Origin: Rhabditophanes sp. KR3021
Taxonomy: Eukaryota; Nematoda; Chromadorea; Rhabditida; Alloionematidae
Direction of reading: 5' to 3'
Length of the DNA stretch: 64,000 bases
Assembly (NCBI GenBank): GCA_963281155.1
Contig: CAUJLY010000003.1
Location: 1,302,001 to 1,366,000, forward strand
This document shows positions 11,901-64,000 of this stretch, one piece after another (the stretch's first letter is position 1; every line of letters begins with the position of its first letter). The notes under the pieces are model-generated. The model made no database searches. It was not told where the DNA came from and was given only the letters and a program-made list of their open reading frames with translations. Position numbers and translations under genes: made by a program.

Positions 11901-13939
11901 AAGCCTTGCAACGTGAAGACTCTTATGAAGAGCAAATCCGCAACCTTTCATCCAGGCTAAAGGAGGTAGGGGAAACGATGAATAACCTATATAATTATAT
12001 TTCATTTTAGGTAATACATGGGAACAATTAAAATGAACAAGTTTATTTGAAAAGTGGTAAAATATAGCAAATAGTAATTAAGTGATATGCTTCTTAGACA
12101 ACCGTATTTTTTCAAGGATAATCTTTGAAATTCTTTTGACAGTTGTAGGATGTTTCTTATACATCATTTGGCTGGATTATCCAGATGCCTCGATATTTGT
12201 TAGGGTATCTTGGAGGTCCAGGATGACAGAATATTCATAGGTTAGAGCTTCGTTACTTGTTAAGTCGTCAAGATACATAGCCACCTTTATTAATAGACGG
12301 ATCACTGCTGTTTGGAGATGCAGTCATGATCATTGGATACACATCATGTTCTTCCAAAAGATAACTACATAAATACTTTCCCGATTTGAGTAGTGTTTCT
12401 GGATAGAGTAACAGAATAAACTTCATTGTTTGATTAGTAGCACAACTGGTGAACCACGGATAGCTGAAATTAATGATATGTTCTATTTCGAAGCTGGCGG
12501 CATTCTCTAACTTGTGTTTTATAACTATCAAATTGAGTTGAGATAATTTATAAATGAACAAGCTAATTTACTAAGAAAACACTTTTACAATGTCATGTTA
12601 AACACGCCATCCGTTTTGTATTGATAATATATCCGTATGCAAATCATTTAAATTGAACCTTTGTTGGTCATGAATCCTAGTCATTGTTCTCACCTGGACT
12701 TATCATTAATATTTCTCTTTTCAGGCTGAGACCCGTGCTGAATTCGCCGAAAGATCAGTCCAAAAATTGCAAAAGGAAGTCGACAGATTGGAAGGTTAGT
12801 TTATTATTTTAAACTTCTTTGTACCGTCAAAAACCTTGTCTTGACATAACTCATCATACATCCATCCACGCCTAACAAAGTCCCTCTAATGCTTATAAGT
12901 CCATCGTCTCACCATCGCTTTTGCCTCCTATTGCAGATGAACTATTGCTTGAAAAAGAACGTGTCCGTAATCTTACAGCTGAAATTGAACAAACTGTTCA
13001 AGAAATTCAAGGATCATAAATGTTTCGTCAAGTGATGGGTTTTCTTTTTATGATTGTTCATTATTTTGTCAAGATCATTAATTAATGAACAATTTTTAGA
13101 AAGTCTATACACCTGTTATGATTTGCTTTGTCTTTGGCTTTTGTATATCGTTTTCATGCTTCTTTTACATGTACTCTCTCTTTTAAAAATAAGATTAAAA
13201 CAAATAATTTTTTTGTTTGTCCAAATAAATTACAAAATTTATATAGTTTGATGAGGAGCTATTATGTGTCCACTTGCTTTTAGTTCCTTTTTTATCGCTT
13301 ACGAAGGTAAAAATATATATTCCCATTGGCTTATTAAATAAATGCTTTTATCAATATTAAATGTACCAATTTCTTGCATGTAACCATTTCCTTTATAGAC
13401 AAGAGCGACAAAGTCTTTGTTGAAAATAAACAATTAAAAGAAGAGTTAGATAAATTGATGAATGAACTTAATTCTGCATGAATATGAATTAACTACTATC
13501 CTTTTTATCTTACCAAATATGTCTAAGAATGTATGTAACTGTGTCACCTTATGGCCGCCCAAGTCAATTAATTTTTTTACTAATATACTATTTAATTATT
13601 TTAATACTTTACTCAATTCTTTGTCCATTAACTTAACCTTTCTTTTAAAAGAGAACTTCTTTTGGGAATAAGCATTTAATGAGTTAAGATGACAAATTTT
13701 GAGTAGATTGCATGAATTTTTCAGATATGTGTACATTATTTTTTGTATCAATAAAATGTTAAAAGAGAATATGTTTAAATGTTGAATGCAGAAGTCAATT
13801 AGTTGTTCAAATAAATGTCCCTCAAAGACATCCTTAATAAATAAATTTACTTCCAGACGAACTTCTCCACGAAAAGGAAAGATACAAGACCATCTCAGAA
13901 GAACTCGACCAAACTTTCCAAGAACTTTCAGGATATTAA
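5967..13939 (+). CDS. lev-11: tropomyosin, complete gene with alternative exons
   Basis: Tropomyosin is a parallel coiled-coil dimer that winds along actin and gates myosin access in muscle and cytoskeleton. The long form starts [15 protein letters not shown] (5967-6011), then [16 protein letters not shown] (6580-6774). Common exons are 11368-11438 ([20 protein letters not shown]) and 12725-12794 ([20 protein letters not shown]). Between them lie sets of alternative exons listed separately. One exon from each set gives 45+195+134+118+71+139+70+83 = 855 nt, exactly 284 aa plus stop, the canonical muscle length. The short form from 9820 gives 771 nt, or 256 aa, as in C. elegans LEV-11 short isoforms. 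Heptad spacing is unbroken. Intron 2 is about 3 kb and holds the internal promoter; the 12-12.7 kb intron carries an antisense GIY-YIG fragment. Identity is certain; the isoforms actually used are not known. Confidence 0.97.
8950..9819 (+). promoter_or_regulatory. internal tropomyosin promoter and 5'UTR (inferred)
   Basis: The last part of the 3-kb second intron precedes the alternative start exon at 9820. It is less AT-rich around 9180-9440 and then becomes T-rich with repeats of the form TTGAGCTT/TTTAAGCTT. In C. elegans the short isoforms come from an internal promoter at the same place. No core promoter motif is clear, so limits are approximate. Confidence 0.4.
9820..9975 (+). CDS. lev-11: tropomyosin short-isoform first exon
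   Basis: This 52-codon exon encodes [20 protein letters not shown] and ends KKRED before a GTGAGT donor. It replaces the first two long-isoform exons and joins in phase 0 to the next exon. It closely resembles the start of the non-muscle or short LEV-11 isoforms of C. elegans. Its own ATG, deep inside the long-isoform transcript, indicates a second promoter. Confidence 0.93.
10025..10328 (+). CDS. lev-11: tropomyosin alternative exon pair (set 1)
   Basis: Two homologous 134-nt exons lie at 10025-10158 and 10195-10328. Both begin [11 protein letters not shown]; one continues with [15 protein letters not shown] and the other with [15 protein letters not shown]. Each enters in phase 0 and leaves in phase 2, so using both would shift the frame. 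Only 36 nt separate them. They correspond to the exon 4a/4b pair described in C. elegans lev-11. The second has a Cys (VNCDESER) absent from the first. Confidence 0.93.
10524..11257 (+). CDS. lev-11: tropomyosin alternative exon triplet (set 2)
   Basis: Three homologous 118-nt exons lie at 10524-10641 ([17 protein letters not shown]), 10831-10948 ([19 protein letters not shown]) and 11140-11257 ([17 protein letters not shown]). Each enters in phase 2 and leaves in phase 0, so only one can be used per transcript without a frameshift. They match the position of the three exon 5 forms of C. elegans lev-11. The middle copy is the most divergent, has two Cys and ends TEFKCEE where the others end ADRKYEE or ADRKYDE. 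Confidence 0.92.
11520..11965 (+). CDS. lev-11: tropomyosin alternative exon pair (set 3)
   Basis: Two homologous 139-nt exons at 11520-11658 and 11827-11965 both encode [20 protein letters not shown], then differ ([20 protein letters not shown] versus [20 protein letters not shown]). Both use phase 2 entry and phase 0 exit. They correspond to exon 7 of C. elegans lev-11, where four versions are reported; only two are visible here. The first has a weak donor (GTTTAG), which may favour the second. Confidence 0.92.
12040..12525 (-). pseudogene. GIY-YIG nuclease-like gene fragment in tropomyosin intron
   Basis: On the strand opposite to tropomyosin, translation from about 12525 reads [19 protein letters not shown], then [20 protein letters not shown]. 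After a frame change at about 12285 it continues [18 protein letters not shown] and ends [20 protein letters not shown]. These segments match, in order, the longer copy in goa-1 intron 1 (24782-26976), but the roughly 420 nt between them in that copy are missing. A TGA-type stop interrupts the second part. An AATAAA lies at 12047-12042 on this strand. It is a decayed partial copy, not a gene. Confidence 0.82.
12937..13939 (+). CDS. lev-11: tropomyosin alternative last exons (set 4)
   Basis: Three 83-nt terminal exons, each with its own stop, lie at 12937-13019 (ends VQEIQGS), 13399-13481 (ends [10 protein letters not shown]) and 13857-13939 (ends FQELSGY). All accept the same phase-1 donor at 12794. 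The C-terminal 27 residues of tropomyosin form the end-to-end overlap and contact troponin T, so the choice sets polymerisation and partner. The first and third are alike ([20 protein letters not shown]); the middle one is divergent. Each is followed by AATAAA-like sequence within about 200 nt. Confidence 0.92.
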
Positions 13940-14328
13940 AAAATTATGGCACGATGCCCTTATTATATCCTGCATATCTTCACCAGATATCCATTTTTAT
14001 ATTTCAAAAGACATTCTCCATCCAACTTTGTTTTTTAATTGGTTCTAAACACAGTTTATTGCAATAAAATGTACTAAATTAACAATTAAAAAACTCAATC
14101 AAATGCCTTTTTAATAAATTTGACATTTATCAACATGATTTTTTGTAATAAATTTAATAAAAAAGATCGCACAAGAGTATTTACTTCTTCATTTTAAAAT
14201 AACTTCTCACAAATAGGTCCAGAATCAATTATTGTCTTTTTATAAACTAAATAAGTTCAAAATAAATTATATTGTCTTTAGAAATTAAATAAGTTACAAA
14301 TATATTAGATATTCTTTAGAAATAAATT

Positions 14329-15873
14329 CTAATCGTCCATCATCATTCCCAACACAGTTAACAACATCATCTTTAAACTTCCCATTGAATTCGAACAAAC
14401 AACAGCTTCAATTTTCGTGGTGCTGATTTCGTTGAATTCACTACAGATTTGTTCAAGGTCTATTTCTGATCTTGCTAACAACAGACGTAAGACTTCATCC
14501 TCGTGATCTTCGAAATCATCAAACTTTTCTTTTAATAACTTGGCATAGAAGCATGGTTGAGAGGACAGATTTTCAAAGAACATAACCAAGATTTCCCGAA
14601 CCTCTGTAACAAATAACTCTTTCATGATACGTACTATGTCTTTGTTGATAAGTTTTTGAAATTTTGAAATTAAACTAGTCAAGTGAGTGTAACTTCTTTT
14701 GGCCAACAGATCAAGGAAGAACTTTTCATCTTCCATCCCATCAATACCTTCTCCTCCCTTATAAAGTCTAAAAACGTCCTCCTCAACCAACTCCTCATTC
14801 AAAGCACCCTCGTCCCGATCTCCTTTAATCAAACCCAACAAAAACCTTTGATACCCACTGTCACTCTTTTCCTTAATTACTTCCTTCACCGTCTTTCCAT
14901 ACTTTTCCTTATACTGGTCCTTGACTTCATCAATCATAGCTTTACTCTTTCCCCAAAACATCTCAATTACCAGCGCATTATCAATACAGTTCCCTGACAA
15001 AGCTTTGTGCAAATCCTTAACATTCTTTTGGCGTGGGCATTCCATCAGCATCTTAAGCACCTTATAAAGCTTGCCCTTAACCTTCAACTTAAATCTATTA
15101 GCCAAAGTCTGATTGTACAAATTGAAGTATTGAACCCCAATCAAATGCCTTTCCCTTGTCGTTCTTCTCAACATAATCTTTATAACCGTTTCCTTGTCAA
15201 CTTTCGAGGCCGTCGTAGCAACTCGCAACATTCTTGCATCACCTTTTGAATCGAAGCCTTCGCTAGCCCCAAGAGTAGCTTTGTCGAACTTAACTATCTT
15301 ATCCTTCTTCATCAAAGTAGTCATAACAGTCGTAGCTTGACTATAAACAGACGAACCAATATTCGAACAAGCAAAAGCTGCTGAAGTTTGATTCCACGGA
15401 GAAGACATATGAAATGGATTAAAAGTTCCATCTCCACCATTATATGAGGACATTGAATTGAGATGACTACCACCATAAGGACCCATTCCAAAGACAGCTT
15501 GACTAGCAGCTATTGACTGATAAATGGGTGGTGGCATACACAAATTATAAGATTCTTGAGTTGGGGATACGTTTGATTCACCACCAAATATCTTTGCCCA
15601 GTCATTTCCACTCATTGGAGTGATATTCTTGGGTATTGCATAAGGATCTGGGTAGATTTCACTTTTGGGTTTGCTTGAATCGGGAAAATTTAGGTCAACA
15701 TTTATTACTCTGCCCTCGCGTTTACTTTTCTTTGGTGTTAAACGAGAGAAAGAACGTATTTTGTCTCGGACACGACTGGCATTAGATTTTAATTGTGTGG
15801 GAATTTCATCCGTATGTGGATTGAGGACTTCGTGGCTTGACGGAGACTGAAGTGAAAAAATATGCGCGTTCAT
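14329..15873 (-). CDS. annexin, divergent, with long low-complexity N-terminus
   Basis: An intronless 514-aa reading frame. The first 200 residues are rich in Ser, Pro, Gly, Met and Tyr with a basic patch (TPKKSKREGR), as in annexins with long tails such as A7 and A11. The rest has four annexin-type repeats of about 70 residues; the clearest is MIDEVKDQYKEKYGKTVKEV followed by SDSGYQRFLLGLIKGDRDE, the typical annexin repeat end. Annexins bind acidic phospholipids through Ca2+ held by GxGT loops with a later acidic residue. Those loops are degraded here (GNCIDN in repeat 2, GGEGIDG in repeat 3, none clear in repeats 1 and 4), so Ca2+-dependent binding is doubtful. Its start faces the unknown gene at 16236. 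Family call is good; activity is uncertain. Confidence 0.78.
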   Translation of the reverse strand: MNAHIFSLQSPSSHEVLNPHTDEIPTQLKSNASRVRDKIRSFSRLTPKKSKREGRVINVDLNFPDSSKPKSEIYPDPYAIPKNITPMSGNDWAKIFGGESNVSPTQESYNLCMPPPIYQSIAASQAVFGMGPYGGSHLNSMSSYNGGDGTFNPFHMSSPWNQTSAAFACSNIGSSVYSQATTVMTTLMKKDKIVKFDKATLGASEGFDSKGDARMLRVATTASKVDKETVIKIMLRRTTRERHLIGVQYFNLYNQTLANRFKLKVKGKLYKVLKMLMECPRQKNVKDLHKALSGNCIDNALVIEMFWGKSKAMIDEVKDQYKEKYGKTVKEVIKEKSDSGYQRFLLGLIKGDRDEGALNEELVEEDVFRLYKGGEGIDGMEDEKFFLDLLAKRSYTHLTSLISKFQKLINKDIVRIMKELFVTEVREILVMFFENLSSQPCFYAKLLKEKFDDFEDHEDEVLRLLLARSEIDLEQICSEFNEISTTKIEAVVCSNSMGSLKMMLLTVLGMMMDD

Positions 15874-16235
15874 TTTGGAGTAAGTATTTTTAGACGGTTG
15901 CGTCTTTTTATTTGTTCATGTTTTGCTTGTCGAGAAGGCAAATTTTTGGAAATTTGTGTATAAGGAATGTACTTTGTAAGTTCATTTTTATGATACGTGT
16001 ATTGACGTCTTTAATCACAAAGGAGAGAGGCGTGACAGGAATTGACAGGCTGACTCTTACATATATTTTGCCAATTTCAAAATTGGAATGACGAGTATTG
16101 CCTTCAGAGTACTTTTCGCGTACTTTTTTATTTTTTAAATATTTGTTATGAAAAATGACCGTTCGCTCTTTACCCTTATTTCCTTATTCAAATAAATTAA
16201 TATATTTTTCAATTCAGATAGAATTACTTGTTAAG
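15874..16235. promoter_or_regulatory. bidirectional upstream region, annexin / unknown gene
   Basis: About 360 nt between two divergent starts. It contains a splice acceptor (TTCAATTCAG) ending at 16216, 19 nt before the ATG at 16236, which would suit trans-splicing of the plus-strand gene. No other feature is evident. Confidence 0.4.
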
Positions 16236-17092
16236 ATGGCAAATAAGTATATGGATGAGGAAACAATGAGAGATGGGGCTGCTATCGTAGTCAAACTCTG
16301 GAAAATCGAGCAACAGCTCAAGGAGGCTGACGAAGAGTTTGGGAAGATGGAGGCGAACCCCCTTGGAAACGACTACTACTGGAACATCAAGGAGATTAAA
16401 ACTTTTATCAGGAAAGCTATTTCGAAGGTTAGCGTGTCTAGGGAAAAGGTCACGAATATCTACAAGAGTTACGTTTGTTGTTCTAATAAAAGAGGTACAA
16501 ATACATTCTCGTCTACAACTTCGAGAGTTGTAACTAATCCAGGTACGTTTCTAATAATGTATGATAAAATTAATAATTCACTTGCATTCAGAAAGGGAAA
16601 GCATCAATACTCCCAACAATAATGAGTCTGAATTCGGGGACTTTGGGAAAGAAACGAATGACGCAATAGAATTGGAGAAAGTTATGAGTAAACTTGGTAA
16701 TATCATGGATACCATGAGCAATGTCTCGCTTCCAAAGTAATATTTCCGCTCAACACTTCAACTTTTTTAAGAGCACTTCTTCTAAGCCCATGGAACAACT
16801 CGTTAATGCTAACCAGCATGACGGGCCTCTTGGTTCTACTTCCCCATTCAAAACCTCAAAAGGCTTCTTTTCGGGTGGTTGTTGTGAATCAGGAAAAACT
16901 TTGGAAAATAATTTCGCCTCCAAACATAACTTTGAATCTTTGATTGGTACAACGCAATCTACACTTTCAACCACTGAGACAGGCAAAAACTACCTCAAAT
17001 ATGCTAAAAACCATGGCAACCTTTTTCCGAACAAAGCAAAAGAAGCGTTCCTTCCAGCATCCAAAAGAGGATCATTCCTACTTGGTTATTAA
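16236..17092 (+). CDS. unknown helical protein, frame question near 16,720
   Basis: Exon 1 (16236-16542) encodes MANKYMDEETMRDGAAIVVK followed by charged helical sequence with coiled-coil character (LWKIEQQLKEADEEFGKME). It splices through a 49-nt intron (GTACGT donor, TTCAG acceptor) to 16592 and continues in frame to a TAA at 16738-16740. A second frame, MSRFQSNISAQHFNFFKS at 16721 to a TAA ending at 17092, overlaps the first by 20 nt and has coding-like composition. A very small intron (16688-16718, or 16697-16718) would join both frames in phase, giving one longer protein, but it would be shorter than any other intron in the window. A frameshift is the alternative. AATAAA follows at about 17148. 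I do not recognise the family. Confidence 0.55.
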
Positions 17093-17384
17093 CTGTAAAA
17101 TAATATTGTAATCTATAAATGTATGCCTTTTAATTAGACTTTGTTAAATAAAATAATTTATTGCTCCTCATGTTGTCTTTTGTTAAAATCATTATTAAAT
17201 AATATGATTTATTGTTGCATCTGATGTCTTTTGTCGAGACATTATTTAAAACATTTAGTAGTCTTAATTTGGCTTTTAAATAACAAATAATGATAATTTC
17301 GTTTAAACGTGTACCACACAAAAATCGACCAAATATCTAACGCACCACACATAAAAAGTAGTCTGCTGCGTTGGTAAGTTATCC

Positions 17385-17412
17385 ATTTTCCTAACCCAGT
17401 CGTTCTGCAAGC
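17385..17412 (+). promoter_or_regulatory. snRNA proximal-sequence-element-like motif
   Basis: The core CCTAACCCAGTCGTTCTGC lies about 38 nt upstream of the U5 snRNA. A near copy with three or four differences is found at 21990-22017, at a similar distance before a candidate snoRNA. Position and sharing between two small-RNA genes suggest the proximal sequence element used by snRNA promoters in this species. Confidence 0.65.
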
Positions 17413-17449
17413 ACAGTCAACATAAGACCTTCCAAAAATGTAGGATAGA

Positions 17450-17568
17450 CAGGTCTTGAATAACTACAATAAACCGAGCAGCTTTTTCGCCTTTTACTAA
17501 AAAGCTCCGTGTAGTTATTCATTCATGACATTACATGAATTTTTGGGAGCTTCTCTTCGGAGAAGCAA
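17450..17568 (+). ncRNA. U5: U5 spliceosomal snRNA
   Basis: U5 snRNA holds the exon ends in the spliceosome. The invariant loop 1 CGCCTTTTACTAA is at 17488-17500, capping an 8-bp AGCTTTTT/AAAAAGCT stem, followed by CCGTG as in other U5 RNAs. An outer 11-bp stem pairs 17458-17468 (GAATAACTACA) with 17510-17520. Downstream is an Sm-binding site AATTTTTGG (17538-17546), then a terminal hairpin GCTTCTC-TTCG-GAGAAGC (17549-17566). Order, spacing and total length near 118 nt all match U5. The exact 5' end is inferred from pairing of GTC with GAC. Confidence 0.93.
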
Positions 17569-19749
17569 AATGATTCCGATACTTTGTCGTATTAAATACT
17601 TCAAATGTACTGAGTGCCTTGTTGTAATGTCTGTGTTAACAGTAAATGGGTGACGTACGTGGTATTTGTGCGTTTATTTAATTATATATCAAGGATCTAA
17701 ATAAGTTTAAATTGCATATGATATAAGTAAGTTGAATATGTTCTAATAATTTAACGTGATTGCTAAGCTTTTAAACAGATGTTTGAAATTATCATTTACT
17801 GATCTACACCACAGTGTGCTCCTATTATCTTCCTTCGAATGGCAGCTTTTAATAAAAGATATTTCTGTTCTGTTTCAATTTGATAAGATATATTTTAGCA
17901 GCATGATTTTATTCAAAGGTGTTTTTATTCTATTTCAATTGATAAAGCAATAATCATTTTGCATCCTTTTGTTTAAAGATATTCTACGTTATTTTAATTT
18001 GATAAGATACTTATTATTTTAACTGAATAATCTAATCAAAAGCGTATGATAACTAAATAAAAGAAATTTGATCCTCCAAATAATTTAACAACTCATCGAA
18101 ATTACCTAATTGCAATCACCAATTACAATATTAAAAAACAAATAAATTGCAGATTATAATCCCCACCATTAATCTCATCTCTTACTAACAAACAATTGAC
18201 CACATTTTATAGAGCGGCACAATTATCTTTTGCAATAAATGATCTATTGCCTGCACGAATGGCCAAATCTCTTTCCCAATGAAGGCCAATCTAAACATCT
18301 GTCAATCAAAAAGTTTGCTAGGTCCATTCAAAGTTTTTAGCTGTTGGATTTTTAGCAAAGCAAAGTTGTAGGGCAAGTGAACAGGTAAATACCGCTCAAT
18401 TTAAAAGATGTTGATGCTTTTGGGTATGGAAACAGCGGGAACTTGAATGTTCACACTAAATATGGACTAGTAGTAGTGCTAATGGTGTGTCTTGGTATGA
18501 TAGTTTCGAGAAATTAACCTATATTATGGCCAAGAGTGTTTGATGATCTATAAAAAGCGAAATAGCCTAATAATGGCAAAAGTTAATAAATTTGTATTCA
18601 TAAATGATTACAATTTAAGGAATAATTACATACAACTGATTGCCGCGATCTAAATTTTATAAATACTTGGCCATAACTTTTTCTATTGTAATTTAATAGG
18701 TAATAAATTCTTATCTATAATAACAAGAAGTTTATGAATTCTTATATACAAATGATTGCAGTAATCTTAATTTGATAATCACTTTTCCATACCTATTTTG
18801 TAATTTAATAAATACTTTGTCATATTATGTGTTGACTAATTTGATTTAAAGGGCCATATGTGTTTATATTTGTTGTGTTATTAATTGTTTGAACCTAAAA
18901 CAATGTAATATGACGACACCTTTTCTTCCCAAGGTAAGACATTGATGATATTTGTAATAAAAAAAGAAATCGAACCCTCGGTACAATAACTGTCATTTAA
19001 ACAACTTTATACCATGCATTATTGAAGTACACCCAAGAGGTTTTTCATTGATTAAATTTGTCTTAAACTAACTATCATTAAAAGTGTATTCCCAGTTTCA
19101 TTATTTTGTAACATCTTCCGACTGAAGGTATTGTCGACGCTTTAGATGTCATTATATTGTTTGATCCAACAATTTATTTGCTTATATACAGCTTCCATTG
19201 CCATTTATAATTACCATTCGACATTTATCTAATTTTTATTACACCTAACAACTTTGCACAATATATCCCGCGTCGCGTCAAAATTTGTACAGGGCCAAAC
19301 TCTCTATTTAGGTATGTTTTGTTAAGACACAAGATGCCACAATCATTTACCTGTGCCACTTCAATCATCACCCAACAAAGCACGTCTATAAATGTCCATC
19401 ATCCAAAACAAGCAACTCTCTACTTTTACTCTCCAACCTTCGCCATTTATCCAAAAGCATCTACCTTTACTTGGGAATGCCTTTTGTAAGTCCCTAAAAT
19501 AGATAGACTACCCATTTAGATCTAAAAGTAAATGCATATAAGTAACTCCATCTTGCATAATTCTCATTCGACCAAGTTTGTATTGTTGCTTTTATTTTTG
19601 ATTTAATACCCATTGTATCTGATTTACCTTTTTTACTTTCAGATTGAACTCATCCTGATTTGCTTATATTTCCGTGCATTAATCACATACTTGTCTTTAT
19701 TAGACTTCTGACTCGAATATTAAGCTACTTTATCTATAACTTTATTAAA
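17569..19749. other. intergenic, AP-2 upstream region
   Basis: About 2.2 kb without a credible gene. It contains a diverged tandem duplication of roughly 120 nt around 18630-18830 (two copies of ACAAnTGATTGC followed by TGTAATTTAATA) and short repeats with TTGATAAGATA near 17880-18010. The last few hundred bases should be promoter and 5'UTR of the AP-2 gene. Confidence 0.5.
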
Positions 19750-23528: not shown

Positions 23529-26500
23529 CTAGTACAGACCACATCTGAAAGGAAATGAGTAAAGAATAAGAGAGATTAGAAGTCCCTGAACGTACCCTCT
23601 AAGGTTATTAGCTACAATAACATCAGTCACTGCATCAAAGACAAATTGAATATTTGTTGTGTCTGTGGCACACGTCATATGGCAGTAAATCTCCTTATTA
23701 GCTGATTTATTTTTTGCCTCAAATTGAGCTTGGATGTAAGCAGATCCTTCGTGATAATCTTGTCTGCCAGAATACTCGGGAAAGCAAATGGTTAGTGGTG
23801 ATTTTTTGATCTTTTCTTCGAATAAATCTTTCTTGTTGAGGAAGAGAATGATACTGGTGTCGGTGAACCACTTGTTGTTGCAGATGGAATCGAATAGCTT
23901 AAGAGATTCATGCATTCTGTTGGTCGTTTCGTCTTCATGTAACACTTGATCGTACTCTGACATTGCCACACAGAAGATGATGGCTGTTACGTCTTCAAAG
24001 CAGTGGATCCACTTTTTCCTTTCTGAACGCTGACCTCCCACATCAAACAGTTTGAAATTTAGGTTCTTGAATGTAAAATGAACCTCAACAATACCAGTAG
24101 TTTTCACACGAGTCCGCAGAATATCTTGTTCCGTTGGTTGGTAGTTACCTTGGCCTAGTCTGTCGAGATCATCGAGGAAACTAAAAATTAATACAAAAAC
24201 AAAAAACATCCTCAACTTACTATTTGGCAGAATCATTGAGCTGATATTCATTAGATCGCGAAAAACACTCCTGCACACCACAATCCGCCCATAGTCGTTT
24301 CATCGCACCAAGTAGTTCTTCCGAAAAAGGGTCCGTGTCTTCCATTCTTGAAACAACATCCATCACTAGCTTCGCATCCACCTCACGCTCCGAATTCCCA
24401 AATGAAACAGACAGATTCCCCATGGCTCTAAGAATGGCTACTAACGATTGCACAGTATTACTATACACGACAGGTTTATATTGTTTATAGTCTTCTGCTG
24501 TGAAACCCGATTCGTGGATGATTTTCATCTGTTTAACGATTGTGGATTTACCTAAAAAGAGTTCATAGTGAGATGTCATTAAAAGGTAATAGACTCAAAT
24601 ATCACCTAAGAGGCAATACACATAACCAGACAAAAGTAATACCTGATCGGGGGGATTAATAATTAATTAATGTTATGGATATAATACATGTTGTGTTTTA
24701 AAGAGATATTGAAAAGTCTTTTTTAGAGCAAATTGCTTCTTCATTTTAAATTATCTCAACTCAATTATTAATTTTAGCGACATGTCAAAACGCAAATTAG
24801 TGGAGGTCAAAAGTTCTGATATACCAGGAAAAAGAGTGTTCCAGCACGAATGATTCAAGCAAGACTTTGCCTCTGAAAGATGTGATGCAAGAAAACCAGC
24901 AGAAGGTAAGTATCAACTATCAATCATAATCAATCAATTTAGTAATAATTGAGGAAGTCAGCCAATCTTTTGCACGAGTATCGACGAATCAACTTGAAAG
25001 GAGAAGAGACGAGGTGCAACTGGATTTGATAATTGAGGATTTCAAAGAATTGTTGGAGAAAACAAAGCTGACAGCACTAAATTTCACAACAATGACTTGT
25101 CATGACTATTTCCAACAAAAGATTAAGACATACGGAGTTGATCTCGCTACATATAGCAATACATTTATGGGCAGATATGTTCTTACCCATTTTCTTCATA
25201 ATAGGCCTCCTGGAGAAAAATCTAAGTGTTTGACTGATGATACTGCTAATATGACATTGAAGTACAAGCATGATGACGACTTTAGATACTTGGTTGATCA
25301 CAAACTAACCGAGTGGGTGAATCTTTTCTTTCTCAACATGGAAGAAGGAGACTACTTGCCAAAGAAGGCTGCTTATGTTATTCTTAAAAGGGTCTTGATG
25401 AGGTCAACACTTCCTGACAAAAAAGATGTACAGGCGAATTGGGACACATTCAAAGACATTTTGAGTGAAAAAGGTTTGACGGTAACTGATTTATCGAGAT
25501 TGATGTTCGGAACTGGAGAGTTTTGGGATTGTTTAAGAAGAATCAAACCACTGAGTATTCTCATGTCCCCTATGAAGATGTTTTGTTCTGCAGTAAAGTG
25601 AAAATCAAGCTGATTTTTGAGATGGCCGTAAATGAAGATTTTGCGGGGCATGTGACAGATGTTTTGAAACAAATCAAGGAAGACAAGAAAAAGGATATCG
25701 TTTACACTCACATCTGCCAATTCTGGGAGGAGGGGTCTTTCAGTAACTGTTACAAGTTACAACGATGCTGCATTCAGATTCGAAAGGAAGCTGCTAAACT
25801 AAATGAGGTGCTTAAGGATGAGTCTCCTGAGTTCAATGCTGCTGTAAGTTTTAACATCCTAACTATTTAAACAATCATATATTTTTAGACTCTGGATGAA
25901 AGTCCAAAAGAGTGCCATGTTTATTTGGGAAGGGCGAAGAAACTGGAGCCAGACTATGTAGGTGTAACTGAAGAGCCTGTTGGAAGATACAATGACCACA
26001 GCCAACAAGTCTCATTGCGTATGATGAATGAAGGTCCGATGTCAAGAAAGCAAAAATGTTTTGCAAAAGGAGAGGCCGTGAAATGCTCACTTCTAAAGAG
26101 AAATTCACCAGAGATGCTGCATATGGGATTGAACATGCTATAAACTATAGCTATCCCAAAATGACAAACTGCGCGACAAACCGGACTATGGAATTTATCT
26201 TGTTGCTGTATCCAGAAACACTTCAAAAGTCGGGCGAATACTTGTGTAACTATCTTTTGAAAGAACACAACGTGCACTTGATGTCTATGAGTGCTTCTCC
26301 AAACAACTATGATCCAACTATTAAGAAAGGTGGTACCTGGAATGTGGAAGTTGTAAAGCTACATTCAACAAGCACAGCAACTTTGCATATCATACCAAAG
26401 GAAGAGCCTGTAGCAAACTGAGAGCCGAAGTCAAGAAGGTATTTGAAGAAGACAAGCAATTGGATCCCGAACAATTGTCGGCAATCTTAAGGAAAGTCTA

Positions 26501-27212
26501 AAGGAAGCTGCATCTAGGAGAACTTTCAAAGAAAGGCAGTCCTTCTATGTCTTGCTAGACCTTCCAAAGGGGATTGACGTTAAATTGTTAACTTTCGAAC
26601 AATCTATGGAAGCCACCTTCTATTGCGGTGTCTCCAATGCTTTGCGAACAACATTTAATATGCACAGAGTAGCAGCTCAATTTCGTTTCTCAAGATTCAT
26701 CCTTTGAATGGAAAGGAAACAAAGACTATGAGTATTTTACATGGTAAAAGACGATTGGTAGCTTCCTATCTTGACGACTTAACAAGTAATGAAGCCTTAG
26801 CCTATGAATATGCTGTAATCCTCGGCCTACAAGATACTCTCGCAGATATCGATGCCTCTGGACAAACCAATCAGGTGATGTCTAAGAAACATCCTACTGC
26901 TGTCGAGAGAATTTCAAAGATGATCCTTGATAAAGTCCACTTATCTCAAAAAACACATCATCTAAATAGTGTCTGACCTAATTTTATCCGTTTTACAATA
27001 AATTTTTGATTGCTTGTTGGTTGCTCCTTTACTTACCTAAAAATAAATATTAATAAATGAAGGCAATAGGGACAAAAACCTGATTCTCCTGCACCAAGCA
27101 GCAAAAGTTTAATATCCTTGGCTGCCTGTAAGCCATCTTCCTTAAGATTTTTTTCAATCATACGTGACCGCTCTAGAGCAGCCCTCTCTTCTTGACTCAT
27201 TGTACAACCCAT
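23529..27212 (-). CDS. goa-1: G protein alpha subunit Go (GOA-1)
   Basis: Four coding exons, 27212-27080, 24551-24221, 24180-23596 and 23544-23529, sum to 1065 nt and 354 aa, the exact length of GOA-1. The protein starts [20 protein letters not shown], with Gly2 for myristoylation and Cys3 for palmitoylation. It has the P-loop GAGESGKST (split by intron 1), switch [11 protein letters not shown], switch [18 protein letters not shown] and TCATDT for guanine binding, and ends CGLY, the receptor-contact tail. It is nearly identical to C. elegans GOA-1, the neuronal Go that restrains acetylcholine release and couples many receptors. The last exon encodes only the final five residues. A splice acceptor lies 2 nt before the ATG, so the 5'UTR is spliced or trans-spliced. 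Intron 1 (2.5 kb) contains an antisense GIY-YIG pseudogene. Confidence 0.98.
24782..26976 (+). pseudogene. GIY-YIG nuclease-like gene, broken, nested in goa-1 intron 1
   Basis: On the strand opposite to goa-1. Translation begins [18 protein letters not shown] after an acceptor-like TTTTAG. It uses an apparent intron 24905-24941 and runs about 280 residues of unknown sequence. After a second intron (25843-25888) comes [20 protein letters not shown] then [11 protein letters not shown], the GIY...YIG...R..H pattern of GIY-YIG nucleases, followed by [18 protein letters not shown] with the expected helix glutamate and TNCATN with a candidate Asn. Next is [20 protein letters not shown] plus RAC, a C2HC-type zinc-finger pattern. 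Then a second weaker unit ([38 protein letters not shown]) and an end at [14 protein letters not shown]. An in-frame TGA near 24848, frameshifts near 25530, 26100, 26340 and 26490, and stops near 26705 break it. AATAAA follows at about 26998. The GIY-YIG helix resembles that of LEM-3/ANKLE1 nucleases. Confidence 0.7.
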
Positions 27213-54949: not shown

Positions 54950-55026
54950 AAAATGTCGTGAGAAGTACTTAAGAACAGTATTTTTTTCAAATGTATATTA
55001 AATACTTCCTTAATCATAAATACATA

Positions 55027-56242: not shown

Positions 56243-57921
56243 TCAACCACATTTACACTTTTTCTTGTCTGTTGGTGACTTTGTATTTTTATCCAATCTA
56301 AGCCCAGACTTGGTATCTTTTTCTGGAGAAGTAGACTTTAGCTTGGCATCGAGGACAAGTTTAGTGATGCAGGAGAACATGTCATCTACACAAATATTTT
56401 CCTTGGCAGAAGTTTCAAAAAAGTGGATATTCATTGAGGCAGCAAATTTCTCGGCATCTGCTTTGAGAACTACCCTCCTTTCTGGGTCATCTGCTTTGTT
56501 TCCAACGAGGATCTTTTCTACTGAATCGCAATTATTGTCGATTTCGAGGAGCCATCTCTTGACATTGCTGAATGATTCTCCGCTCGAAACGTCGTACACC
56601 ACGACGACGCCATGTGTTCCACGGTAATATGTTGAGGTAATGGTGCGAAATCTTTCTTGACCTAGTGAGCATGTAATATTATATTCCAATAATTAATTCA
56701 CATACCTGCTGTGTCCCAAATTTGAAGCTTTATCTTTTGCCCATTTACCACAATTGTGCGGATCTTGAAATCTACACCGATTGTTGTGATGTAGTTTGCT
56801 ACAAATTAACATTAAATAAATTCAATTGTTTTTAACTTACGTGAAAAAGTATTATCCGCAAATCTCAATAAAAGAGAACTTTTTCCAACCTAAAGAGTAG
56901 GAATTATTAACAGTGGCAGTAGCTAATTATTTTTTAATAGGAGCTCCCCGTTTCCCTCTTTTGAAATCCAATAACCTAGCGAACAAAAGTTAAAATTTAC
57001 TTTCATTTTCATGTACTTTCCCATTTTCAAAACATGCCAGAATGGGCGATGCGGCTGAAAATGAGGAAATTCTACCCTGATTACTAATAATCAATGAATA
57101 TTAAAAAAACTGTAATTTGAAAAGATAGTTATTATATTTTTGTTTCATGAACATTCTTTTGATATAAAAGTTCAATAATAAAGAACGTAAATGAAGGTTC
57201 AACTCAGAATGGACGTCGCTAAAAGAAAATGCCAACATGACTGTGATACCGGTCTTTGGGGGAAACACTCTGGCCCAGGTGGAAGAAACTTTAAAAAAAT
57301 AGACGCCAGAATCCACTCTAAATAAGTTTGGAGATATCTTTTTTGGGATGGTCAAAAAACTGTTTAGTAAGTGTTACGCATCGGAGGCGGAATTAAGAAC
57401 TATGTCCACGCAAATTAGGGGATCTTTCCGGATCAAACCCTTCGTACTGATGTATACTTTTATAGTCATCTAATTCATCCTGATCAAAAAACGTACACGT
57501 TCATCGCATTGTTTGCATGACAATCCAAATGATTTTCCTTGTTTTGATAAGGTTAAAACAAACAACGATGCAAGTAAGTTAAGATGGGACCCCTCAAGAA
57601 ATGTTGAAAGTCGGGACTTAAAAAAGTCTGCCAATTTGATTTATGGGCGTTTTAGTCAAAATATATAGTTAAACAAAAAATGTTACGAAAATTCAATTGG
57701 GAGCATGTCGTCGAGGAAAGTGGCGAGGAAGCTGATGCCAGGATATAAAAAGAATATCTTAAATCATCCCGTTAAATGATTTTTTTAATACTTTTATTTG
57801 TTCAGTGCGTTTTTTCAATTTTTTAATAAAGATTTCCGCCCTCCTTTTAACTTACTCCTGAATCACCAATAATAAGTAGCTTAAATAAATGATCATAATC
57901 TCTAGGTCCTGCGAGAGCCAT
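56243..57921 (-). CDS. rab-35: RAB-35 small GTPase
   Basis: Four exons, 57921-57856, 56889-56841, 56798-56706 and 56661-56243, sum to 627 nt and 208 aa. The protein starts [20 protein letters not shown] and has the P-loop [43 protein letters not shown] and ETSAKE. Effector regions match Rab35, which controls endocytic recycling, yolk receptor traffic and cytokinesis. The tail is unusual: it ends KKKCKCG, with a CXC pair followed by Gly, where Rabs usually end in CC or CXC for double geranylgeranylation. Intron 1 is about 970 nt and contains an antisense coding remnant; the other introns are about 42-45 nt. It diverges from mxl-2. Confidence 0.93.
57180..57780 (+). pseudogene. unknown coding remnant, antisense in rab-35 intron 1
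   Basis: One plus-strand frame runs about 195 codons with only four interior stops (near 57192, 57300, 57471 and 57667). It includes [59 protein letters not shown] and [20 protein letters not shown] before a TGA. Codon use is less AT-rich than the rest of the intron. I do not recognise the family. It points against rab-35, like the GIY-YIG copies in their hosts, but shows no visible sequence match to them. Confidence 0.4.
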
Positions 57922-58725
57922 CTTTTAATCTACCTCGAATATTTATGTACTAAAAGTGGTCAATATAATAGAGTGTTAAACCTGAAACAATGTTACAATT
58001 ATTGAAATATCTAGTAATACGATTTAATATAAATTGAGATGGTCCAGAAATTAACTATAAAAGTTAACACCACAGAAATGATTCATCTTTTTTGTATTTG
58101 AATGTTTATGTCGTTACCAATTTGTTGCGTCATATGTATAACAAAAAGGAAGCAATAATAAATAGTAGAGTATGAGTAAGGGTTGAAATATATTACATTT
58201 TTTTGACACAAATAGCTTTAAATAAGAAGGAAGATAAAAGAGAAAGAGTTAGGGTAAAAGTAATTAATTCACGATGGACAATTCTTTAACTGTGATAAAA
58301 GCATGGTGATAGTAATACCTTGATCAAATCAAACAAAAGGTTTAATAAATAATTAGATATTATTAATAGAGACAATATAAAGTCGTTATCTACACATCTA
58401 TTTTTCCGAGTAGGTATACAACGAACCCAGCGACGTTGTCCCACAATATATCTCTTTGCGAAACACGCTTCCTTAACTAAACACAAATTATTATTGCATA
58501 CCCACACCCAACTACCGCAATCACGACCTTTTATTTGACGCTACATAACAACAGTTGTGTACTGCTCAATACACAAGAAAATTTATTTAAACATAATCTA
58601 TATTTCCTTTTGTTTAGAGTATTATTATTACACTACGGAATAAAAAAGTATAAAGTACACATACTAGTTAATAAAATTGATTTGAACATTCCAATACTTT
58701 AAAATAAACCTAAAAAGCAATAGCC
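57922..58725. promoter_or_regulatory. divergent upstream region, rab-35 / mxl-2
   Basis: About 800 nt between two genes pointing away from each other. The sequence is AT-rich with a moderately GC-richer patch at 58400-58560. Promoters of both should lie here; no motif is clear. Confidence 0.4.
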
Positions 58726-59404
58726 ATGAGCACACATCAAGCCAGCAGTGGACAGTCTTTGAGTAAAAAGAAAGAAACTCACCTGAGATGTGAACGACAG
58801 AGACGTGAAGCGATTAATGTAAGTGATTTTTTTGTTTATAAAACTTTACCGCAAAACAATAATATTATTATTGTCCGTTTGACAGCAGCTGTGTCTATTG
58901 TCAAAACTTTTAAATTTTATATACTTTCTAAACAATTATCCAACATTTCAGAATGGATATGGCGAGTTGAAAGAATTACTTCCCAAGTCACTGTCATCGC
59001 AAGGTTGCAAGACAACTAATGCTTCGATCTTATTCAGATCTTTTGACTATATTGGTCAATTGCAGGAAAAGATAAGTTCTCAAGATGAAGAATTAGATAA
59101 ATTAAAAGCTAATTATGCAGCCCTTGAAATGATTTCAAACCAGTATGAAAATTTAAGCAAAGAATCTTCAGCTCATGTTGTAGAGTCACGTGATCAGAAA
59201 ATGTTAGTCAAGTTGCTGGAGATGTCTTTTGATTCTTTTAAAAAAGATGTTGATACTGAGGATTACACTAAATTGACACAAACTTTGATTACTTGGGTTG
59301 AGAAGATGGATTATAAGGTTGGTTTGAGTGTCGGTTAGATGTATGTCTCTCTCTTTTAGGGTATATCGTTAGAAATGTTATCACTTTTATACAGCAACCC
59401 ATAA
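58726..59404 (+). CDS. mxl-2: Mlx / MXL-2 bHLH leucine-zipper factor
   Basis: Three exons, 58726-58818, 58952-59317 and 59360-59404, give 167 aa. The basic region reads HLRCERQRREAIN, with the His-Glu-Arg residues that contact E-boxes, followed by NGYGELKELLPKSL, loop, and NASILFRSFDYIGQLQEKIS, then a leucine zipper (EELDKLKANYAALEMISNQY). The C-terminal part (FDSFKKDVDTEDYTKLTQTL, ITWVEKMDYK) matches the Mlx dimerisation and cytoplasmic-localisation domain. Mlx pairs with Mondo-type factors (MML-1 in C. elegans) in nutrient response and lifespan. The last exon (GISLEMLSLLYSNP) is chosen from a strong CTCTCTTTTAG acceptor and its fit to Mlx; its donor GTTGGT is weak, and without it the protein would end VGLSVG. 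Confidence 0.85.
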
Positions 59405-59747
59405 AAAGGAAATTTATTTACATATGGAGAAAAGTTAATTTTTTAATCACACACCACTCAACACACACATACACTCATATGCTCAATTATTGATAAGATT
59501 TTTTCGTTAAATAATTATACAAAACGATCAATTTGTGTTTAATATAGATTTTTAAAAGTTAGAGATTTTACGAATAATAAATTGTTTACCATCCATAATA
59601 TTGTTTTTTGTTGATTGACCCTCACATCTCCTACAAAGAATAACTTGGTGTAGGCATTTTGATAAACAAACACCTAAAAAGACGGCATCCATTTAATAAA
59701 AAACCTAGTAACTCTTTTTATTTCTGCTACTGAAAGATCAAACTACC
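59405..59747. promoter_or_regulatory. mxl-2 3' end and Rogdi upstream region
   Basis: About 340 nt between two plus-strand genes. AATAAA occurs at about 59576 and 59695. No further feature is seen. Confidence 0.4.
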
Positions 59748-60996
59748 ATGACATCAACAATAGTCAAGCCATCATTTGAACCAGGTAATTACCAAAATTA
59801 AAACTAAAATTGGTCTTTACAAAAATAAATTAATCATATACAGGGAGTTCATTTAATTAAAATATGATCTGTGTTGTCTCTCCCTTCGACATCTTTGTCA
59901 TTATATACATACAATAAATAGTTGTATATCTTTTTACACTATATAACTAACTTGAATTCACATATTACACACTAACACACCATTTCACATAAGCAAATTT
60001 AGTTAAAATAAATCAATTTTGTGACACACTAACATTATACATGATGATGTCTAATAATAATAATTACCAAATAATTCATTTAGAGCCTATTTTTGAGCCT
60101 CCTAATACGGAGGCTTTGTTAAAGGAATGTGCATGGCTGCAGGAGAGTAAAGTTCCGCATGTCTTTAAAGAGGTAACTTACATTTTATTTAGTTTTAATA
60201 ACATCGATTCAAGCTTGAATTTGTTATCAGAGAGATATGTAAAAAGCTAAATATTTCGTCTAAGTTGAATACCAAATTTTTGAATAGTATTACTGAAGAG
60301 AAGGTTGCAAAGTCCTGTTTCGGGATAAATCAAAGTGAAAAACATATGCTGGTTTCCAAGAGTGGAGCAGATCAACTTAAGGCAACTGTGTTTTTGTTGG
60401 GAGAGAATGTGTGTCAAGTTGAAATTTCCTTTAAGCACTCAAAGTATCCGAGTGGAGTCTTTAGGTCAACTGCCATGCCAAATGTCCAATGGAAGCTCCA
60501 ACAATTACAAGATACCGGAAACTATTGCGTAAAGATACATCAAACTTTAGTCAAAGCTCTGGAAAGCATCACCAAACTGGAACAAGATAAGTCCTGGGAC
60601 TTGGCTTCCGCAGACTTTGTCATGTCCGCCATCACCCAACTAACAGACCTTTTCAAACGCGCCAAAAACGCCATGATTCTGCCCCGTAAAAAAACCCTGG
60701 CCGAATTAGAAAACTTCCAACCTACAAAATTCTTTAACCCACCTCTTCCACCAGACTACCTTATCTCCGTCTACATCAGTGCGAGCAAAGTCATCTGTGC
60801 CACTTATCAAACCCAATCAAAAGTATCCATCCCACCACTTCCAATCCAAAACAGTCTAAACATATCACAAGCTGAATGTATAGTCCCACAATTCATGGAT
60901 GTCCTTTACGTCCTAAATGTCGCCAGTGGCCAATTGAATCACCTAGAAATGTCAATGAAGACCGTTGTTTGTCAATTGAATAAATATGTTAAATAA
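59748..60996 (+). CDS. ROGDI: Rogdi homologue (V-ATPase/DMX-associated)
   Basis: The main exon reads SITEEKVAKSCFGINQSEKH, ATVFLLGENVCQVEISFKH, NVQWKLQQLQDTGNYCVKIH, FNPPLPPDYLISVYISASKV and ECIVPQFMDVLYVL, in the order of Rogdi. Mammalian Rogdi is a small all-alpha/beta protein of about 287 aa, mutated in Kohlschutter-Tonz syndrome and tied to DMXL-WDR7, the RAVE-like V-ATPase assembly complex. My model is 59748-59784 (MTSTIVKPSFEP), 60083-60172 and 60235-60996, in frame throughout. A second possible start at 60041 (MMSNNNNYQIIHLEPIFEPP) reads through the 60083 acceptor into the same frame. The last acceptor must be the CAGAGAG at 60228-60234 with exon start at 60235; the better-looking CAG would hit a stop. 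Confidence 0.82.
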
Positions 60997-61258
60997 AATG
61001 TATAAAAATTATTTTTTATTTCGATTAAATGGCACATATTAAAAGATGAAAAATAAATTGTATTAGTTTGTTAGTTTTTGGAAGGGGAATCCTGTATACG
61101 AGAATGAAATAGAGTATATTGTAACACCAAATGCGTATTTGTTGTTATGGAACAATTTTTACACCTGAAGGATGGTGAGGCGAGATAGTGAAACACCAAA
61201 TTTCCTACTATAAAATTTATTCAAAAAGGGACCCATATTAATTACATCTACATTTAAA

Positions 61259-62020
61259 TTAAGCAAAGATTCCTTTTTCTTTAAGTTTAGCGACAAGTTC
61301 ATCAACATCAGCGACGAATTCGCCACCTTTCCTGGTCGGTGGTTCATTGACTTCCAAGGTTTCAGTCTGACTGACTAAGTCGAGAGAGATGTCGGCTGGC
61401 TTGATAGTTTCCAAGGGCTTTTTCTTTGCTTTCATGATGTTGGGAAGGGTAGCGTACTTTGGAGTGTTGAGACGAAGGTCGGCGGTGATCACAGCTGGGC
61501 TCTTGACTTGGATAGTTTCAAGGCCTCCATCAATTTCTCTGACTACGGTGAAACCGCCGTCTTTGGCGTCGATTTTGTTAGCGAAAGTAGCTTGAGGCCA
61601 GTTCAGCATACCGGCTAGCAATTGGCCTACTTGGTTGCAGTCGTCGTCGATGGCTTGTTTGCCGAGAAATACCCCATCGTATTTGTCTCTTTTGACAATA
61701 GCAGCAAGGGCACGGGCCACATGAAGTGGCTCCAATTTGGCGGCTCCGGCTTCGTCTACTTCCACGTGGATCGCTTTGTCGGCTCCCTTGGCTAAGGCGG
61801 TTCTGAGAGCGGTCTGGGAAGATTTTGGGCCGACGGTCAAGACGGTGATTTCCTTGATTGTCTTGGAAGCTTTCAAATCAACACAGCTTTGAAGGGCATT
61901 GTCGCAGAAAGGATTGATAATGTGTGGAACGCCATCCTTGACGACTGCTGTTTTAGAAGGATTAACGCGAATCTTGACGGCGTAATCAATTACGTTCTTG
62001 ACTCCAACTAGTATTCTCAT
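61259..62020 (-). CDS. ETFB: electron transfer flavoprotein beta subunit
   Basis: A single-exon frame of 253 aa, the usual size. It starts MRILVGVKNVIDYAVKIRVN and has the AMP-site region TVGPKSSQTALRTALAKGAD, FLGKQAIDDDCNQVGQLLAG and the ETF-beta signature VREIDGGLETIQVKSPAVIT. ETFB pairs with ETFA in the mitochondrial matrix to carry electrons from acyl-CoA dehydrogenases to ETF-QO. The region ATLPNIMKAKKKPLE corresponds to the recognition loop that docks on dehydrogenases. No cleavable presequence is needed in this family and none is seen. An acceptor-like ATTTATAG lies 4 nt before the ATG. It converges on Rogdi 262 nt away. Codon use is more GC-rich than its neighbours, as for a highly expressed gene. 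Confidence 0.97.
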   Translation of the reverse strand: MRILVGVKNVIDYAVKIRVNPSKTAVVKDGVPHIINPFCDNALQSCVDLKASKTIKEITVLTVGPKSSQTALRTALAKGADKAIHVEVDEAGAAKLEPLHVARALAAIVKRDKYDGVFLGKQAIDDDCNQVGQLLAGMLNWPQATFANKIDAKDGGFTVVREIDGGLETIQVKSPAVITADLRLNTPKYATLPNIMKAKKKPLETIKPADISLDLVSQTETLEVNEPPTRKGGEFVADVDELVAKLKEKGIFA

Positions 62021-62717
62021 GATTCTATAAATGTAAATGAGTTAGTTGATATATAGGAAAAGGTATGTATTGACAATCGATGAACATGGTTATCAAAAAT
62101 AACGACAACAAGATAAGATTAGTCTCTTCGAATTTGCATTCGTATCATGGTCACCTTACCCCAAGTCGATCGTTTCAAGAATAATGTTGACTTTGTAGCC
62201 GTAGTTTGATGTTTTTGCTACAAAATAGAATGAAAAAATAATAAGGTTGTGAAAGTAAGATAACGTTTTAGTTAATTTCAAACTATTGCTTTAATGTATG
62301 AAATAATGAGTCGATTTATAAACGAATGATTTAACTTATAAACATAGTGTGAATGAAGTTGGCTTCAATTAGTTATTTTACTTAATTTATTAGTTATTAT
62401 TACAAGTTTCAAACTTATTGCAAACGGATGACTACCAATTTTCTTTTGAATATACGTACATTGAGCAAACGCTAATTATTTAATTTCAAAACAAAAATTA
62501 AATGTCTTATTCTTAAAATGCATAACTTGATTGTTTAAATGTTAGCATGAAAAATAACAAAATTACACAGATACATTAAATGCAAAATTTTATTATAAAA
62601 CATCTTTAATATTTATTTATTAATTACAAATCAACTTTTTACAGTTAAAAATATAAAGTATCTTTTTATTTTGGCTTTTTAAATATATTCATTATGTACA
62701 AGTATTAGGAACAATTT
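62021..62717. other. intergenic, ETFB upstream / unc-16 3' end
   Basis: About 700 nt between two minus-strand genes. It should contain the unc-16 3'UTR and the ETFB promoter. It is AT-rich with no coding frame of note. Confidence 0.45.
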
Positions 62718-64000
62718 TTAATTCTCCCCATGAAGCCCATCGCCTCCTGCATTCGGCGATGTACAGTTCATTTCCCAGACAATGATGTGACTCATGTCTC
62801 TCGGACGCACAATATGAGCCGTTCCTGATTCCAGATTTCCATTCAAATCATCTTCTTCGCCAAGTCTAAAGTCAATGTAACCATCTCCTCCAGATACTAC
62901 CTGTAAGAAACCGTTCATTAGTATAACGTAATAACTTTTTAATGGTATTATAAAATCATTTTGAATACCGTTTTTGCTCGATGTTTAAATTAGCTTGTTC
63001 ATTTAGAAATACACATTTATACCTTGCCAATTTGATAAGCAAAATGAAACGTCCAAATAAAAATCGAAACGACGATGAAGTCCCAAGGCAAATAGATAAC
63101 TCAGATGGCAATGCTCGATTAGAAAGAAGTGCTCCAATCAGACAAGAAGTCACCATCTCGATCAAATAACTGGTAATGAAGCCCTTGCTTTTGAATGCGC
63201 AGTTAATATAAATTTACAAAATGCCTAGGCAAACATCGACGTATCGAGTCAATCTAACGATATTGTAAGCCGAATCTCAGATATTACTCTCAACAAAAAG
63301 GATAAATATGTTATTTAATAGTATTTGTCTAATTCTACTTTTTTGTCCCTCTAAATAAATTTTCCATATCCTCGATTGTTTTTTAAATTACCTAAAATAA
63401 AGATACAATTAGTTTAAGTGACTTAGGAAACATTTACCAGTAATTTGCGAACATCTGTATCAAGAACTCTCTTGGGTTTGGCGGAACCGGCAGGAATCGG
63501 CAAGAAGAAGCGAATAGAATCCTTGTGGCCATGGAAAGACAATTGCGCCAACTCCATATCACAATAAGGAATGAATGAAGAAACAGCCACTCTCTCCGTA
63601 TTTGGATCAGCATAAATTTCTGGATTCTTGTTGTTTGGATCTTCGTTTAGTGGGACAGACAAAATAACTCCTGTGCCCGTCCCAATCCAAAGCCGTCTGT
63701 TTGTTATCACGAGTGAAGTAATACGTAAATGCAAAAAGTCTAATTTGTTGGTTCCTAACATTTTGGTGATGTAAGGTTCAATGTCAACATCTTGGAGGTG
63801 TTGGTGAGTATGGGCATGGAAAAGTCTGATGGTTGAATCCAATCTGATTGAAATCCAAACACCATCTCCGAGCCATTGCATTGCACGGACTTGAGAGTCG
63901 CGGCGGGGATGGGCTACGAATACTTTTTCGACCGTCAAGTCTTTTGGGTCTATTATAACGACACAGTTTCTATAGGCTGCCCAAACTCTCCCAGTTACGA
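62718..64000 (-). CDS. unc-16: UNC-16/JIP3-4 scaffold, C-terminal part
   Basis: The gene enters from the right edge. An exon from 64000 (or beyond) to 63438 and a last exon 62900-62718 are joined in phase 0 through a 537-nt intron. The protein reads [80 protein letters not shown] and then [11 protein letters not shown], closely following the C-terminal WD40-like propeller of JIP3/JIP4. UNC-16/JIP3 is a kinesin-1, dynein and JNK-pathway scaffold that regulates axonal organelle traffic. The end, [20 protein letters not shown] plus HGEN, corresponds to SHIIVWQV in mammals. The N-terminal coiled coils lie outside the window. The intron carries an antisense GIY-YIG fragment. Confidence 0.94.
63044..63359 (+). 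pseudogene. GIY-YIG nuclease-like gene fragment in unc-16 intron
   Basis: On the strand opposite to unc-16. It starts [20 protein letters not shown], loosely like the start of the goa-1 copy (both have M, KR, then a D-x-P segment). After a frame change at about 63153 it reads [20 protein letters not shown] and ends [17 protein letters not shown], matching the 3' end of the goa-1 copy ([20 protein letters not shown] ... [11 protein letters not shown]). One TAG interrupts it. The roughly 1.9 kb of middle sequence present in the goa-1 copy is absent. AATAAA lies at 63354-63359. Confidence 0.72.

Follow-up and report, generated by a model that had tools for sequence, protein, structure and literature searches.

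The window analysed here is the 64,000-nucleotide (nt) stretch C3:1302001-1366000 of the nematode Rhabditophanes sp. KR3021. It holds three copies of one dispersed element family, in introns of the tropomyosin, goa-1 and unc-16 genes. The element has a gene of its own, for a candidate nuclease of the GIY-YIG type, which in each of the three copies runs antisense to the host gene. The features of the three places are as follows, in window positions and with the kind of evidence in brackets.

11966..12724, plus strand: tropomyosin intron, 759 nt, phase 0, holding a deleted copy (host junctions, Pfam)
11985..12640, minus strand: tropomyosin copy of the element, with an internal deletion and both ends kept (blastn, alignment ends)
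24552..27079, minus strand: goa-1 intron of 2528 nt in phase 1, splitting the P-loop between S44 and G45 and holding the longest window copy (G-alpha match across the join)
24651..27075, plus strand: goa-1 copy of the element, with its 3' end on the donor site of the host (other copies repeatedly align to the same ends)
24906..24942, plus strand: putative small intron of the element itself, GTAAGT...TTTAG (read from the sequence)
24930..25505, plus strand: N-terminal region of the element protein, without a known domain (50% identity to the open reading frame (ORF) of locus L031, E 2e-60)
25844..25888, plus strand: putative second small intron of the element itself (read from the sequence)
25889..26352, plus strand: middle region with a putative GIY-YIG-like pattern, HVYLG...YVGV...R...H (aligned pieces)
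26447..26976, plus strand: LEM-3-like GIY-YIG region at the C-terminus, spread over two overlapping frames (alignment to locus L012, which passes PF22945; genome search)
26998..27003, plus strand: AATAAA 3' of the element ORF (sequence; tally over copies)
62901..63437, minus strand: unc-16 intron, 537 nt, phase 0, holding a strongly deleted copy (host junctions)
62940..63410, plus strand: unc-16 copy of the element, 5' limit uncertain (blastn, protein match to a family ORF)

A preliminary description of this DNA had placed the three sequences in one family, each inside a host intron and running against its host, and this holds on all counts. The tropomyosin and goa-1 copies match by blastn over 168 nt (83%), 145 nt (76%) and 65 nt (85%), the unc-16 and tropomyosin copies have a common 5' end (96% over 25 nt, blastn), and the unc-16 copy, read as protein at 63154-63315 (+), matches a family ORF with 46% identity (E 7e-9). 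The host strand is plus for tropomyosin and minus for goa-1 and unc-16. When the hosts are joined across the introns, Pfam reports Tropomyosin with 97 bits and G-alpha with 131 bits; the unc-16 host is called from its open frames together with a WD40_2 match of 19.7 bits, which is below the cut-off of 22.5. At its 5' end the goa-1 copy stops short of filling its intron by 103 nt (both sides summed). The approximately 100 nt of the goa-1 intron that lie outside the element (24552-24650) read CAG|GTATTAC...TTTTTAG|G and resemble a tandem second intron.

Element ends and host splice sites

We examined 45 copies: the 3 window copies, 20 retrieved by position, 11 loci from searches, L059, L004 and L005, and 8 short stretches of low identity. 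A host junction is readable at 40 of them, and in 40/40 the host is antisense to the element gene, which extends the antisense bias of the preliminary description well beyond the window. Both junctions are read in 30 copies (28 by script, L004 and L005 by eye) and the donor junction alone in 10 (5 by script and 5 by eye, with L063, L065 and L067 less certain). The five copies without a junction call are L037, in which the acceptor is flush and the donor is not, L057, and L062, L064 and L066, in which the 3' end is not reached. The donor of L024 is GC.

In most copies the element itself makes up the intron, its two ends coinciding with the donor and acceptor sites of the host. Read in the sense of the host, the element starts as exon|GT, followed by approximately 6-10 variable bases and then the conserved TTTCTATTGTCTTCATCTAATAATATTTATTTTTAGGTAAG, and it finishes as AACACAACAT...CATAACATTAATTAATTATTAAC, then a C-rich stretch and YAG|exon. 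Eight copies align to both ends of the goa-1 query (query start at 27 or before, end at 2428 or after), and when the element length is subtracted from the intron length they leave 3, 15, 17, 17, 22, 23, 24 and 28 nt. In most complete copies there is therefore no room for an older intron. The same subtraction leaves 38 nt (L036), 48 nt (L017), 52 nt (L056) and 88 nt (L019) in copies with looser ends. Similarity among copies ends at the intron edges, and most of the hosts read are unrelated genes. The idea that the family had landed inside existing introns is not supported in the form first proposed, given the coincidence of element ends with host splice sites in most copies and the few nucleotides left over in the eight copies.

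A screen for catalytic group I or group II RNA finds no Rfam match in the window except a U5 small nuclear RNA gene at 17450-17567 (+, 81.5 bits), and none in 8 further loci (47,060 bases).

Junction repeats, intron phase and host proteins

Flush direct repeats at the two junctions of 24 copies sum to 99 nt, while random pairing of donors and acceptors across copies gives an expectation of 77.7 nt, and 0 of 20,000 permutations reach the observed sum. Repeats of 7 nt or more are found in 6/24 copies (0.74 expected): goa-1 (7), L012 (10), L046 (7), L047 (7), L045 (8) and L058 (7). The copies outside this test are L004, L005, L019, L044, tropomyosin and unc-16. We take these repeats as the eroded remains of a target duplication lying across both splice sites.

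Intron phase is also biased. Phase 1 is found in 23/28 introns, or in 22/27 without L017 (p 0.00025 against 47% of CAGG sites), and in 9 of 10 selected introns whose hosts have Pfam or PDB support (goa-1, tropomyosin, L012, L014, L015, L050, L051, L024, L048 and L039). The 102 ORFs of the same sequence have their CAGG sites in phases 0, 1 and 2 in proportions of 39, 47 and 15%, therefore the choice of site alone would give approximately one half in phase 1. The junction codon is GGN at 19 of the 28 listed sites, three of which are in P-loops. A sketch of a longer exon consensus around the insertion sites is too weak to use.

Pfam matches in the joined hosts include dynein, AAA/BCS1, galactosyltransferase, RtcB, transketolase, spectrin, Amino_oxidase, G-alpha and tropomyosin. 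Alignment with solved structures shows no gap at the junction in dynein-2, BCS1 or spectrin, while RtcB and transketolase each have one extra residue exactly there (V and A, respectively). GLDC is also gap-free at the junction, with a 5-residue insertion approximately 8 residues downstream. Related genes without the intron exist for two hosts: a dynein paralogue at C3:5142448 is continuous through the intron position in an open frame of 793 residues, and the position of the goa-1 intron is spanned by 6 of the 9 other G-alpha matches in the genome, 3 of these without an internal stop.

Family size, spread and age

The searched genome comprises 44.8 Mb in 6 contigs. A query of 105 residues for the C-terminal domain finds it at no fewer than 150 places (150 of 393 candidates scored), 34-76% identical to the query apart from the self-match, and the N-terminal part of the element protein is found at 77 places. 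With the goa-1 copy as query and 40 of the 63 blastn candidates scored, at least 70 pieces are found; all six contigs have some, and the pieces often end at identical outer edges. The family is dispersed and was once mobile, in line with the preliminary description. The largest contig, C6, with 11.2 of the 44.8 Mb (a quarter of the genome), holds only 2 of the 150 C-terminal-domain places.

The best pair among the compared copies is only 88.7% identical (overlapping loci and one gene-converted pair excluded), therefore the family is old. The copies we read are old and mostly broken. Many are internally deleted and still dispersed, and the deleted copies that keep both ends (tropomyosin, unc-16 and L014) fit either non-autonomous spread or later decay. 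Second partial copies occur near the first ones in L057 (2746-3011) and L052 (162-389). The excluded pair is L050 and L051, which sit in the RtcB and transketolase hosts. Their 97.6% identity over 1409 nt had raised the suspicion of a recent transposition, which we dropped on finding their ends older and unlike; we read the likeness of L050 3151-4673 and L051 3278-4735 as gene conversion between inverted copies approximately 32 kb apart. Two pairs of host paralogues, L045/L053 and L047/L027, carry elements at matching places, and these insertions seem to be older than the duplications of their host genes.

The encoded protein

The label of GIY-YIG nuclease, given to the family at the outset from sequence patterns, holds for two copies, both in introns: L012 matches PF22945, the LEM-3-like GIY-YIG family, with 28.2 bits (cut-off 27), and L004 matches PF01541 with 28.7 bits (cut-off 22.6). 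The window copies taken alone are below the cut-off (PF01541 13.5 bits against 22.6), and L059, L041, L052 and L031 also fail. In the genome, 16 of 38 PF22945 places pass the cut-off, and 6 of the 16 are places of this family. Three other loci, C2:2186518 (167 bits), C1:2498294 (140 bits) and C6:4280 (125 bits), are strong LEM-3-like matches and possibly represent host LEM-3-like genes. L007 and L008 belong to a different group of GIY-YIG genes, of the YYxGMT type.

For the N-terminal region there is no Pfam match in the window piece or in L031. The middle region resembles a second GIY-YIG domain by eye; this reading is not supported, as the region has no Pfam match and hhalign aligns only a 29-column cysteine-rich stretch. 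The element protein has zinc-finger-like stretches. No other enzyme domain, reverse transcriptase included, is found in the two sets of 7 pieces scanned with Pfam. The 677-residue read-through of the goa-1 copy, compared with a set of approximately 5.8 billion proteins that is limited by length and of uncertain eukaryote coverage, has 6942 word-sharing candidates and none at E 0.01. A profile of the C-terminal domain finds no relative in IMG/VR, NCBIfam gives nothing useful, and the L012 ORF has no match in PDB.

Differences between copies are uneven across codon positions, at 0.313, 0.251 and 0.443 over 5349 codons, a count taken from protein-guided matches, with several pieces per copy, that leans towards amino-acid conservation. 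As for the reported AATAAA near the 3' end of the element, 16/20 copies have it within the final 120 nt of the element strand, compared with a frequency of 18% in random stretches of that length; poly(A) sites are not counted cleanly in this way, as the last AATAAA of some copies is the one inside the terminal TTACCTAAAAATAAA.

A probable introner with an antisense gene

We conclude that the family is probably an introner that carries a GIY-YIG gene antisense to its host, and that makes a spliceosomal intron where it inserts into an exon. Insertion into exons would account for the origin of these introns. For the mechanism we propose the following steps. The element gene, on one strand, with its own small introns and its AATAAA, would encode a protein of the LEM-3 GIY-YIG type. 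This protein may open exon DNA at AG|G-like sites. The element would then be copied or pasted in at a (N)AG|G-like site with duplication of a short target stretch, and the duplicates would therefore straddle both splice sites. The strand opposite the element gene would provide GT as donor and, as acceptor, a branch-point-like TTATTAAC, a C-rich stretch and YAG, and the host transcript would be mended by splicing the element out. As only the strand opposite the element gene carries splice sites, tolerated copies would always be antisense to the host. Selection by orientation, part of the preliminary description, stands in the rule itself, while its reason would differ: an exonic insertion can be tolerated only when splicing removes it.

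That the encoded candidate nuclease makes the target cut and so moves the element is a step we regard as evenly balanced between true and false. The fuller proposal, a self-moving animal introner in which an antisense-encoded GIY-YIG nuclease opens new AG|G-type exon sites, and in which a homing-like enzyme and the spliceosome together replace the self-splicing RNA of group I introns, is tentative, with a probability somewhat short of one half.

Several observations weigh against an introner origin or against parts of the mechanism. Junction repeats are shorter than 7 nt in 18 of the 24 copies. A first test with 16 copies gave weaker results (p 0.0015 for the left run, 0.16 for the right run and 0.006 for any offset), and the other 8 copies were added after that result, with the repeat in L045 already known. 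Copy-edge repeats had been anticipated as a sign of mobility; the direct repeats exceed chance, while no terminal inverted repeats join the ends of the goa-1 copy, the only copy checked, which has two internal pairs. Phase 1 is seen in 2 of 5 donor-only copies, which are outside the count of 22/27. The extra junction residue is absent in 4 of the 6 hosts compared, and the L017 join is out of the frame expected from its transporter-like sequence. No copy among 16 plus L059 has the whole element gene in one open frame. After subtraction of the element, 117 nt remain in the tropomyosin intron and 103 nt in the goa-1 intron (the query itself); these two copies may have entered an older intron at its (donor) edge, or their introns may have been enlarged later. 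Intron gain itself would be an event reconstructed from the DNA of a single genome, rather than one directly seen.

Among the alternatives, the strongest keeps the introner and treats the GIY-YIG gene as a relic or passenger, possibly a LEM-3-like gene that was captured, with the element moved by some other enzyme. We consider it possible, if unlikely. The nuclease activity of the element protein is a prediction, many copies are internally deleted and dispersed nonetheless, and the three strong LEM-3-like loci offer a possible source. Against this, the gene occupies most of the long copies and has hundreds of related places, the uneven codon-position differences are as for a gene kept coding during spread, and the scanned pieces hold no other enzyme domain that could do the moving.

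Landing in existing introns, with survival where antisense because sense copies harm the transcript, would explain why the host introns at goa-1, tropomyosin and unc-16 exceed their elements in length, and it agrees with an antisense bias that is complete in the copies read. The leftover of 3-28 nt in eight copies is too short for an intron, and the one-codon additions at two junctions, the junction repeats and the excess of phase 1 also argue against it; we find it improbable. Still less probable is an RNA route, in which an excised host intron is reverse-spliced or otherwise copied to new sites. Such a route would likewise yield introns with precise limits and antisense genes whose own introns are retained, whereas the junction repeats and the unequal copy ends are unlike a faithful intron copy. 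An origin as old nested genes, multiplied when their hosts underwent segmental duplication, could be suggested by the two paralogue pairs with elements at matching places; as a general explanation it is refuted by similarity that stops at the intron edges and by hosts that are mostly unrelated (dynein, BCS1, RtcB, transketolase, spectrin, glycosyltransferase).

Comparison with known systems

The origin of new introns is a long-standing question, and introners usually have no gene that would reveal their mode of movement. This intron-making element brings a candidate enzyme with it, in an animal lineage in which introners are reportedly rare, and the proposed mechanism offers a simple reason for the strict antisense rule. 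The junction repeats, the extra codons and the phase bias are readable marks that separate insertions into exons from insertions into old introns.

LEM-3/ANKLE1 nucleases belong to the same Pfam family as the element domain (PF22945). They are single-copy repair genes with LEM and ankyrin parts, and unlike the element family they are neither multicopy nor bounded by splice sites. Penelope-like elements and some group I introns are mobile elements that use GIY-YIG nucleases. The element differs from the former in that the scanned pieces have no reverse transcriptase domain, and from group I and group II introns in that neither the window nor the 8 further loci have a matching Rfam family.

Introners, or introner-like elements, are sets of many similar introns in unrelated genes, mostly DNA-transposon-like, as described in the available text of the 2022 survey (Gozashti et al. 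2022, PMC9860276). With those introners the family has in common the splice sites at the element edges, target duplications and occasional added codons (PMC9860276). The survey text derives introners from non-autonomous elements and sought the transposase-encoding elements that move them; unlike the introners it describes, the larger copies here bear a LEM-3-type GIY-YIG gene on the antisense strand (PMC9860276). Among animals and land plants, the same survey reports just two groups with introners, and its main text has no word starting with "nematod" (PMC9860276). A survey of nematode introns cites introners as known elsewhere and, in its available text, reports no nematode family (PMC9169325). 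Literature searches of open-licence papers, combining introner with GIY-YIG, nematode or homing endonuclease, found no animal introner with a GIY-YIG gene. Intron-making elements are already known, and it is the carriage of such a nuclease gene that is unusual.

A further parallel is viral. The "shintrons" of mirusviruses are described as spliceosomal homing introns with genes for GIY-YIG and other endonucleases and without group I or group II signatures (PMC12768974). They have in common with the family described here a spliceosomal intron that encodes a homing-type endonuclease domain, with an activity that is predicted in our case. According to the same text, shintrons occur preferentially in particular virion genes and are interpreted as homing (PMC12768974), whereas here the copies are dispersed in a cellular genome. 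The hosts in this nematode are unrelated, with no homing-like preference for one target gene or site. The shintron authors remark on an apparent lack of equivalents in eukaryote genomes, at least in the text available (PMC12768974). If the element does move itself by means of its own nuclease, the family would represent a counterpart of the viral shintrons that disperses within a cellular genome.

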